A stretch of DNA of 64,000 nt from Flavobacteriales bacterium UBA952. Lineage in GTDB: Bacteria; Bacteroidota; Bacteroidia; Flavobacteriales_D; Crocinitomicaceae. Location: NCBI GenBank assembly GCA_905182495.1, contig CAJJBU010000017.1, positions 62,001 through 126,000 on the forward strand, read 5' to 3'. The translations under genes were made by a program, and so were the position numbers. Numbering within the stretch: position 1 is the stretch's first letter; each line of letters starts with the position of its first letter. Below the pieces are notes generated by a model. The model did not search any database. It was not told the DNA's origin and saw only the letters and a program-made list of their open reading frames with translations. This document shows positions 61,679 to 64,000 of the stretch, piece by piece.

Positions 61679-62464
61679 ATGAATAAAGCACTTGAATTCG
61701 GAATTCGCACACACTTCCACTTGGCTATTTTCAGCTTTGTATATATCGTTGGACTTTATAAACGAGATACGGAATCTATTGTATACGCGGCGATGTTCTC
61801 CTTTGGGATTTTAGCCATTTATAATTCCCATAGACTTTATAAATTAAAAAGCAGGGAGCTTCCTGAGTCTGTTTTCATTTGGGTTAATGCTCACAAATGG
61901 ATGGTTTTAGGTATAGCGATCACATCCTTAATAGTGTCCTTGGCTTTATACCTGTGCAACTTTGATCAAAGTTACGAAGTTCATTTTCTTACTGGAATAT
62001 GTATAATTGTAAGTTTTTTATATGTCTATAAAATTGGACATTATTGTCTTCGAGAGATTCCTTTTCTCAAGATATTTCTTGTTTTAGGCATTTGGTTCTT
62101 CCTTTTGCATACCCTGCCTATTTTGTTGTTTTCACGCCCCATTTCTTTAGGCCCAGGTCTTATTTTGTTGATTGCTATTCTGATTCCATCGGACATGAAA
62201 GACATCCGTTTTGACCCAAAAGAAATGTACACGATTCCTCAAATATTGGGGATAAATAGGTCCCTCTATTTATTGCGTTTCCTCTCGTTTATCGGTGTCT
62301 TTTTTCTGATATATTTAGATTGTAATAACCTGGTCCCTTGGCTCATCAGCTTTGTTTATTTATTCATTCTTACATTTTTCCATAGAAAAATTGGGAATGA
62401 ATATTATTTTGTTTGGGTGGACGGAAGTTTTTTAATAACGGGTTTAGGGCTGCTATTTACTTAG
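61679..62464 (+). CDS. UbiA-like polytopic membrane protein
   Basis: A 261-residue protein with about eight membrane helices. NSHRLYKLK (about residues 49-57) and SDMKDIRFDPKE (about 180-191) sit where UbiA prenyltransferases have their two Asp-rich motifs. The second motif keeps D-x-x-D-x-x-x-D, while the first lacks the usual NDxxDxxxD pattern, so it may be a diverged or non-canonical member. A strong Shine-Dalgarno-type AAGGAG (61667-61672) lies 6 bases before the ATG, unusual for Bacteroidota. The substrate is unknown. Confidence 0.6.
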   Translation: MNKALEFGIRTHFHLAIFSFVYIVGLYKRDTESIVYAAMFSFGILAIYNSHRLYKLKSRELPESVFIWVNAHKWMVLGIAITSLIVSLALYLCNFDQSYEVHFLTGICIIVSFLYVYKIGHYCLREIPFLKIFLVLGIWFFLLHTLPILLFSRPISLGPGLILLIAILIPSDMKDIRFDPKEMYTIPQILGINRSLYLLRFLSFIGVFFLIYLDCNNLVPWLISFVYLFILTFFHRKIGNEYYFVWVDGSFLITGLGLLFT

Positions 62465-62478
62465 ATTTCAATGCGCAC

Positions 62479-62504
62479 AAAAAACCCGAAATCTCTTCCG
62501 GGTT
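62479..62504 (-). terminator. Intrinsic terminator on minus strand
   Basis: Read on the minus strand: AACCCG stem, GAAGAGATTT loop, CGGGTT, with six T at the end of the stem. On the plus strand no T-run follows the stem, so it works towards lower coordinates, away from leuS. No minus-strand protein gene precedes it. Confidence 0.7.
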
Positions 62505-62585
62505 CTGTGTGTTAAAAAAACATTGAATTATAAAAAAAGTAAAGTGTTAAAAACTTAAAAAAGCAGTAAAGTAATCTGTTTTTCA
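62479..62585 (-). ncRNA. Candidate sigma-54-dependent small RNA
   Basis: The minus strand has a consensus sigma-54 promoter at 62596-62611, predicting a start near 62585, and an intrinsic terminator ending near 62479. The enclosed transcript is about 107 bases, very U-rich, with the 8-base repeat ACUUUACU twice, 27 bases apart. A 24-codon frame from a TTG at 62586 (MKNRLLYCFFKFLTLYFF...) would encode a basic-hydrophobic peptide, but it would be leaderless and its hydrophobicity follows from U-richness. The existence of the transcript is inferred from the two signals. Confidence 0.5.
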
Positions 62586-62595
62586 ATTTGGTTAA

Positions 62596-62611
62596 TGCAA
62601 CTATTGTGCCA
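62596..62611 (-). promoter_or_regulatory. Sigma-54 (RpoN) promoter, -24/-12 elements
   Basis: Minus-strand TGGCAC-AATAG-TTGCA matches the RpoN consensus TGGCACR-N4-TTGCW at every fixed position, with a preceding pyrimidine. It lies in the 255-base spacer between the UbiA-like gene and leuS. Confidence 0.65.
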
Positions 62612-62694
62612 AAATCACAGATTGAATTTTATTTTAGACAAGGAGGGAACGGTGTTTTTTAAAAGTCTATCTTTTTCAGATGAATCACAATACG

Positions 62695-62702
62695 TATCTT
62701 TA
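62695..62702 (+). promoter_or_regulatory. Probable -7 box TATCTTTA for leuS
   Basis: One mismatch from TAnnTTTG, 17 bases before the leuS ATG. Confidence 0.35.
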
Positions 62703-62719: not shown

Positions 62720-64000
62720 ATGGAGTATAACTTTAGGGAAATAGAGGCCAAATGGATTTCATTTTGGAAATCAAATAAAAGTTATAAGGTTTCTGAGGAT
62801 TCTTCAAAACAGAAGTATTATGTTTTGGATATGTTCCCTTATCCATCCGGTGCAGGGTTACATGTTGGGCACCCTTTAGGTTATATCGCGTCTGATGTTT
62901 TAGCGCGTTATAAGAAGCTGGAAGGGTATAATGTTTTGCACCCTATGGGTTATGATTCATTTGGTTTGCCCGCTGAACAGTATGCGATTCAAACAGGGCA
63001 ACACCCCGCGATAACGACCGATAAAAATATAGAACGCTATCGCAATCAACTTGACCAATTAGGTTTTTGTTACGATTGGGATCGAGAACTTAGAACGTCC
63101 TCTCCTGATTATTATAAGTGGACACAGTGGATTTTTAAACAGTTATTTGATTGTTACTACGATGAAAGATTGAATAAGGCCGTTCGCATATCTGCCTTGG
63201 TTTCTGAATTTGAGATATCAGGTAACCAAAATGTCCAAGCAACAAATGACTGTGAAAGTGTGTTTTCCTCTAAGGATTGGATGTCCTTTGATGCGGCTAA
63301 AAAAGAAGCTACTTTACAGCAATATAGATTGGCTTATTTAGCTGATAGCTGGGTAAATTGGTGTCCTGAGCTTGGAACCGTCTTGGCTAATGATGAGATT
63401 GTGAATGGTAAATCTGAACGAGGAGGTCACCCCGTAATGCAGAAGAAAATGCGTCAATGGTCTATGAGGATTAAGGCATATGCCGAACGTCTTTTAAAAG
63501 ACTTAGATCATTTAGATTGGACAGATTCAATTAAAGAGCAGCAAAGAAATTGGATTGGAAAATCAGTAGGATGTTCTGTGTTATTTGAAGTCGAAAGCCA
63601 CACGGAATCCATCGAGGTATTTACAACGCGTCCTGACACCATTTTTGGTGTTTCTTTTATGGTCTTGGCTCCGGAGCATCCACTTGTAAAAGAGATAACA
63701 ACTAACGAAAACAGGACGGCGGTTCTAGATTATCAACGGGCAGCATCTAAAAAGACTGAAAGAGATAGACAGAGTGACGTTAAAACAATTTCAGGTCAAA
63801 ATACAGGAGCATTTGTCATTCACCCTTTGAGCGGTGAAAAAATTCAGATATGGATTGCTGATTATGTATTGGCTTCTTATGGAACAGGAGCTGTTATGGC
63901 GGTCCCTTGTGGTGACCAAAGAGATTTTGATTTTGCTAAATATTTTGACATTGAGATTAAAAATATTTTTGATAACATTGATGTATCTGAGGCTGCACAC
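62720..64000 (+). CDS. leuS: Leucyl-tRNA synthetase, 5' part (continues beyond window)
   Basis: The first 427 codons of the class I synthetase charging tRNA-Leu. The start MEYNFREIEAKW is typical. The HIGH motif reads HVGH within PYPSGAGLHVGHPLGYIASD, and MGYDSFGLPAEQYAI follows. The editing domain is entered near the window end (TTRPDTIFGVSFMVLAPEH, core TTRPDTIFGVSF, and YGTGAVMAVPCGDQRDF). The KMSKS loop and anticodon domain lie outside. Unlike the IleRS of this window, the HIGH motif is normal. Confidence 0.96.
   Translation, partial: MEYNFREIEAKWISFWKSNKSYKVSEDSSKQKYYVLDMFPYPSGAGLHVGHPLGYIASDVLARYKKLEGYNVLHPMGYDSFGLPAEQYAIQTGQHPAITTDKNIERYRNQLDQLGFCYDWDRELRTSSPDYYKWTQWIFKQLFDCYYDERLNKAVRISALVSEFEISGNQNVQATNDCESVFSSKDWMSFDAAKKEATLQQYRLAYLADSWVNWCPELGTVLANDEIVNGKSERGGHPVMQKKMRQWSMRIKAYAERLLKDLDHLDWTDSIKEQQRNWIGKSVGCSVLFEVESHTESIEVFTTRPDTIFGVSFMVLAPEHPLVKEITTNENRTAVLDYQRAASKKTERDRQSDVKTISGQNTGAFVIHPLSGEKIQIWIADYVLASYGTGAVMAVPCGDQRDFDFAKYFDIEIKNIFDNIDVSEAAH

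Follow-up and report, generated by a model that had tools for sequence, protein, structure and literature searches.

Bacteroidota are abundant in the sea and in the gut, and to our knowledge little is known about the mechanics of small RNAs in this phylum. The closest described system is Rfp36 of Flavobacterium psychrophilum (PMC9723704). This putative regulatory RNA is described as part of a chaperone and envelope regulon and as preceded by a predicted sigma-54 (SM4) promoter, and it is the only sigma-54-linked sRNA of Bacteroidota met in the literature searched. In proteobacteria, GlmY and CrcZ/CrcY are likewise described as sRNAs with -24/-12 promoters under the control of an activator (PMC7073468, PMC8657755). 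The enteric sRNAs MicA and RybB (PMC1804206) are short as well and are controlled by a sigma factor for folding and envelope stress, although this factor is sigma-E. Their type is marked by Hfq-dependent repression of omp mRNAs.

Here, the spacer upstream of leuS very probably harbors a conserved small RNA driven by sigma-54, as judged from the sequences of the window (the whole stretch of 64,000 nucleotides that was analyzed) and of related genomes. The elements of the locus are as follows.

62596..62611, minus strand: predicted sigma-54 -24/-12 promoter TGGCACAATAGTTGCA (pattern match; same position in 13 of 13 RNA-bearing genomes)
62479..62585, minus strand: predicted small RNA of about 107 nt (start set by the spacing from the -12 GC, 3' end falling within the T run; covariance model match)
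62557..62584, minus strand: predicted 5' stem-loop of the RNA (folding; modest covariation between two clades)
62521..62554, minus strand: conserved, U-rich core (GUUUUUAACACUU...UAUAAUUCAAUG) that is mostly unpaired; candidate contact region (near-invariant alignment columns)
62479..62504, minus strand: predicted intrinsic terminator with six T (sequence, folding and covariation)
62695..62702, plus strand: TATCTTTA, -7-type sigma-A box of leuS, pointing away from the RNA (13 of 13 genomes)
62720..64000, plus strand: leuS, running off the window (open reading frame; compared with leuS of relatives)
61679..62464, plus strand: gene for a 261-aa membrane-type protein, convergent with the RNA (open reading frame; no Pfam match)

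A stand-alone, RpoN-controlled small RNA had been proposed at this position in a first-pass annotation, and the proposal is supported by the presence of rpoN in the genome and by the co-conservation of the predicted promoter, RNA and terminator beside leuS. On sequence, the RNA has its own promoter and its own terminator, and it is intergenic and non-coding. We consider it probable that it is a stand-alone stress sRNA of about 107 nt, which would be co-induced with chaperones and act in trans via its core without the help of Hfq. On protein-folding or envelope stress, sensed by a sigma-54 activator, RNA polymerase with sigma-54 would open the promoter, and htpG and similar chaperone genes would be switched on at the same time. 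The RNA would be transcribed leftward, away from leuS, be stopped at its own intrinsic terminator, and act on one or more mRNAs through the exposed, near-invariant U-rich core. Both the transcription of the RNA and its base-pairing action are what we infer from these features.

Compared with the systems above, the RNA is new as a family and known as a kind. Rfp36 could be likened to it by description only, and matches to R1, a covariance model built from eight sequences of the RNA without their promoters, are confined to a single genus: 12 of the 399 genomes searched across the order have the RNA, all of them from this genus and none from a further one of the 70 genera covered, with stricter filters in this order-wide search that may lose weak matches. 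GlmY and CrcZ/CrcY belong to another phylum, and no Rfam family scored above its gathering cut-off in the leuS-side region; the only sub-threshold match, MicC (RF00121), scored 22.3 bits (E 0.31), its cut-off being 90, and was taken as chance. A sigma-54 sRNA beside leuS was not found in the literature searched. The likeness to MicA and RybB presumes the regulon proposed below, and Hfq was found in none of the 18 genomes searched (five of 14 controls ringing), so the RNA was not filed under this type and any RNA chaperone would be another protein. RbpB is described as a global RNA-binding protein in Bacteroides (PMC11697453). Since F. psychrophilum is described as being without Shine-Dalgarno sequences (PMC9723704) and Hfq was missing here, the enteric sRNA model is not simply transferable. 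A bolder and rather doubtful extension would be that sigma-54, within this lineage of Flavobacteriales, replaces the enteric role of sigma-E and its Hfq-dependent sRNAs, activating htpG-type helpers while the RNA lowers the mRNAs of exported proteins under folding or envelope stress, again free of Hfq. Being conserved and having a clean sigma-54 promoter, the RNA offers a defined point of entry to the sRNA mechanics of Bacteroidota.

With regard to conservation, a DNA search with the 255-base spacer as the query was carried out in its own genome and 59 relatives. Query positions 105-244 matched five genomes (G017, G019, G026, G027, and G033) at 75-78% identity, and these matches began a few bases before the promoter and ended at the terminator. 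G019 and G027 gave a second match adjoining leuS (query 7-40); the remaining matches were weak and short, including one in G031 that fell within the promoter-RNA-terminator unit. Strong R1 matches were obtained in 13 of the 86 genus genomes, namely the source genome itself (E 7.4e-11, with its own sequence in the model) and 12 further ones, with one copy each, all beside leuS, and no extra copy in the RNA-bearing genomes at E 0.1. As the eight model sequences had been chosen by their promoter pattern, the fair test of the promoter is given by the five other genomes (G060, G074, G089, G090, and G092). TGGCAC-N5-TTG(C/T)A was present at the same place in all five, and the promoter in 13 of 13 overall. 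The mean pairwise identity was 0.835 for the promoter (16 bases, 13 genomes) and 0.785 for the RNA (12 sequences, leaving out G089, which is cut by a contig end); the flanks were less alike, at 0.49 on the leuS side (spacer) and 0.48 past the terminator (40 bases). By alignment, the predicted promoter has been conserved jointly with the RNA core and the terminator, as a single unit, and a search of relatives, suggested in the first-pass annotation as a check, finds them co-conserved beside leuS in 13 genus genomes. Among named records, the unit is carried by the uncultured Flavobacteriales MAG CAJWCX010000009.1 (L022), which was the one locus with a strict site (TGGCAYN5TTGCA) upstream on the minus strand among the best 80 of 588 named leuS loci, a few of these 80 having less than 200 bases upstream.

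A leuS tree with 43 rows (all 13 RNA-bearing genomes, 26 of the 60 RNA-less ones examined, and four named outgroups) places the carriers in two well supported clades. One consists of nine genomes that all have the RNA, the other of four carriers plus G068, whose stretch upstream of leuS is too short to judge (115 nt); whether the two clades are sisters is not settled by this tree. The clade-wise distribution indicates that the RNA is a feature of lineages and not of the whole genus.

The intrinsic terminator with six T, which had been placed about 107 nt downstream, was confirmed at this distance when measured from the predicted start at 62584/62585. Its stem is read from the sequence at 62503-62484 and its T run at 62484-62479. 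In folding, it reached a z of -2.65, with one of 200 shuffles equally low. Across eight sequences, 98.2% of the cells are paired and three of seven pairs have changed on both sides; of 500 shuffles, none reached the covariation score, 18 reached the count of pairs changed on both sides, and 37 the number of pair types. A simple terminator scan did not list the terminator at 62504-62479, perhaps owing to stem pairing that extends into the T run. As leuS, the upstream gene, lies on the other strand, a terminator on the minus strand argues for a transcript that starts within the spacer. The 5' stem-loop is the weaker evidence: 85.5% of its cells are paired (nine of 500 shuffles as high) and its covariation score was reached by two of 500 shuffles, whereas its pairs changed on both sides were matched by 390 and its pair types by 491 of 500. 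Its changes track the split of the two clades, and the modest covariation would thus be mainly this one split.

The near-invariant core consists, in the alignment, of GUUUUUAACACUU, a short variable U-rich link, and UUUUU(C/A/U)AUAAUUCA. Within it, UUUUUAACAC does not vary, and further 3' there is another, related U-run that leads into AACA or AAAACA. Most of the 13 folds leave the AU-rich core mostly unpaired. Two copies of ACTTTACT had initially been put forward as target-binding sites. Both are present in the window, but the ACUUUACU pair is not conserved: even the closest relative, G089, no longer has the first copy, which lies in the 5' stem-loop, and shares only the second, which differs in the other 11 genomes, so the copies were dropped as target sites.

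The complement of the core resembles a start site (UGAAUUAUGAAAAA), which had suggested a targeting of gene starts. With one mismatch allowed, sequences antisense to TTGAATTATGAAAAA occur at 96 sites in 12 genomes (17 with the reversed control). The RNA's own locus accounts for 12 of these 96 sites, and start codons alone could explain the excess. Among the 63 sites read, there was no antisense target common to both clades, and orthologs recurred only inside the nine-genome clade or inside one genome. By eye, the recurring genes are a MurI-like gene in three genomes as well as an acyl-CoA thioesterase-like gene and four others in two genomes each. The idea found no support in the window: hybridization of the core to 50 gene starts was no better than that of shuffled cores (72 of 100 as good, compared with 18 of 100 for internal regions).

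Decoy action is the main rival to mRNA pairing. The sigma-54-dependent RNA would then sequester an RNA-binding protein, which would bind at the UUUUUAACA(C) motif, of which there is a further copy ahead of the terminator. CrcZ/CrcY and GlmY are described as sigma-54-dependent RNAs that titrate proteins (PMC8657755, PMC7073468), and the invariant UUUUUAACAC, the related repeat 3' of it, and the mostly unpaired, AU-rich core would all agree with such a role. However, there are just two short copies of the motif, and the second varies between the clades. We therefore regard a decoy as possible, though not as the expected outcome.

Pairing with mRNAs in trans also has to be weighed against a role in cis, in which the unit serves as an insulator between leuS and the convergent 261-aa gene, or in which its transcription tunes the divergent leuS promoter. 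The arrangement would allow for this: the unit lies between leuS and the adjoining 261-aa gene in 12 of the 13 genomes (the contig of G089, the 13th, ends before that gene), and the leuS promoter box is close by, with TATCTTTA beginning 28-30 nt from the end of the leuS ATG in 13 of 13. Yet insulation requires neither an invariant core nor a sigma-54 promoter, and the hairpin in the window is followed by a T run on the minus strand alone. Moreover, leuS was found in 81 of the 86 genus genomes, and its upstream stretch was examined for 60 of the 68 that lack the RNA (the other eight have a partial or divergent leuS). Neither the strict site nor TTTTAACAC was present upstream of leuS in any of these 60, G068 being too short to tell and G075 offering 191 nt, and 27 of them keep a match to the 261-aa gene there (tblastn, E 0.01 or better, several weak). 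With this, a cis role appears unlikely. ATAATTCA alone occurs in three RNA-less genomes (G014, G030, and G095). Three further genomes (G015, G081, and G020) gave weak, terminator-like R1 matches at E 0.02-0.07. These loci contain no promoter and no leuS or 261-aa match, and they look like unrelated terminators; they were dropped as carriers, which makes the count 13 and not 16 of 86.

The promoter had been described in the first-pass annotation as TGGCAC-N5-TTGCA on the minus strand upstream of leuS, matching the RpoN consensus, and it was confirmed at 62611-62596 as the single match to the strict pattern in the 64-kb window. Among 100 dinucleotide shuffles, the strict pattern occurred by chance 0.09 times per window on average, with at least one match in eight of them. 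With one mismatch allowed, the shuffles averaged 1.79 matches, and the window has just the one at 62611-62596. By these odds, the site alone is weak evidence, and the case rests on its conservation. The -24 GG and the -12 GC, 10 nt apart, are both present in the window; across the RNA-bearing genomes, GG is kept in 13 of 13, GC in 11 (replaced by GT in G027 and G090), and the spacing in all, and a purine follows 13 nt past the -12 C in every one. The distance from the -12 GC puts the predicted RNA start at 62585 or 62584. A sigma-A or SM5 box (TAnnTTTG / TAnnTTGY) is absent upstream of the RNA in all 13 genomes, and a promoter of this type was rejected; TATTTTTG lies within the RNA of G031, G074, and G090, 50 bases past the first base of the promoter. 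An inverted repeat of TAGAC (62635-62639, one base off the first-pass position) and GTCTA (62665-62669) had been suggested to bind an enhancer-binding protein. The repeat is present in the window, but in only one of the 13 genomes, and was dropped as such a site. By alignment, no conserved activator-binding element was found in the spacer between leuS and the promoter, where only the leuS end is conserved.

It is quite improbable that TGGCAY-N5-TTGYA is the binding site of some other DNA-binding protein, with the RNA starting elsewhere. The promoter call rests on the consensus, and the two GT variants would fit such a reading, but the constancy of GG, GC, spacing, and start purine, the lack of a sigma-A or SM5 box, and the presence of rpoN in 85 of 86 genus genomes all speak against it. 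A small peptide from the 24-codon TTG frame, raised in the first-pass annotation as the alternative product, is hardly credible and was refuted by comparison, as the frame is open in the window but has its 24 codons in the source genome alone, stops after 10 codons in the closest relative (G089, leuS 91% identical), and has no counterpart in the other 11 genomes when read from the same start. In addition, the gaps in the U runs of the alignment do not come in multiples of three. There is indeed no protein gene in between, as had been noted: no open reading frame of at least 60 aa occurs between the 261-aa gene and leuS.

An absence of rpoN had been named as grounds for refuting a sigma-54-driven RNA. 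The source genome, which is 85% complete, encodes a full-length rpoN with AID, CBD, and DBD domains, together with two Sigma54_activat proteins (E below 1e-40). The first activator (L188, 1252-2418) has 388 aa with a receiver and an AAA+ domain and no HTH match; lacking an HTH, it might act from solution, with no upstream site needed. The second (L189, 805-2037) has 410 aa with an AAA+ domain and HTH_8 and no receiver. Its gene is flanked by lptE and a miaB-like gene (named by eye), and in F. psychrophilum, lptE is described as being paired with a gene for a probable sigma-54 regulator (PMC9723704). Two activators were found in all ten RNA-bearing genomes tested, one of those in G026 holding a stop, and 20 other genomes contained three (11 genomes), two (7 genomes), or one (2 genomes).

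Finally, other sigma-54 sites were considered for the likely regulon. The strict pattern gave 11 matches in six RNA-bearing genomes and, as a reversed control, one; four of the six have no match other than the RNA promoter. With one mismatch allowed, the source genome (G000) contained 81 matches and G017 118, versus 30 each for the reversed control. From the 76 one-mismatch sites in G000, the 34 keeping GG and GC were read, most of them within long frames; in G017, 28 of the 118 were read. The five strict sites of G000 comprise the RNA promoter, two sites inside genes (L125 and L126), one before a thioredoxin-family gene (L120), and an intergenic one (L127). Two genes have a sigma-54-type site in both genomes, with predicted starts 7-10 nt before the ATG. 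One is htpG, named by eye and with a matched HSP90-like ATPase domain (TGGCATACCAATTGCG at G000:C13:23497, L267, and TGGCATGCCAATTGCG at G017:C1:1427159, L323; starts 9-10 nt before the ATG). The other is the exported-looking thioredoxin-family gene, directly preceded by its site (TGGCATTCTTTTTGCA at G000:C13:82973, and the form ending in ...GCT at G017:C1:1362369, L322).

In F. psychrophilum, SM4 (sigma-54-type) promoters are described for htpG, groESL, dnaK, grpE-dnaJ, lon, clpB, a thioredoxin-family gene, and Rfp36, as assigned by 5'-end mapping and motif prediction (PMC9723704). A survey from 2025 describes sigma-54-controlled chaperone genes as enriched in Bacteroidota (PMC12316311). As htpG and the thioredoxin-family gene are common to our sites and the SM4 list, folding or envelope stress is the best guess of the signal, deduced from two genes. 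The RNA would accordingly belong to a chaperone and envelope regulon, resting on these two other sigma-54-type genes, and it may link to the sigma-54 chaperone regulon that is reported for Flavobacterium and Bacteroides (PMC9723704, PMC12316311). Nitrogen stress, the inducer considered in the first-pass annotation, is less likely than chaperone or envelope stress, judging by these other sites.

A skp/ompH-like gene (named by eye; L257 and L320) was rejected as a sigma-54 target. The identical string lies within its signal-peptide codons in two genomes, and it is likely a coincidence that could mislead motif scans. In G017, four exported-looking genes have a one-mismatch site (L313, L315, L321, and L326) whose predicted start lies 4-10 nt ahead of their ATG, and they could represent an exported-protein regulon; except at L321, the site also falls within a longer upstream frame. 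The intergenic strict site of the source genome, L127 (G000:C26:5325), lies outside long frames, upstream of a frame that by eye looks like a beta-barrel protein and divergent from a mutS2-like gene.
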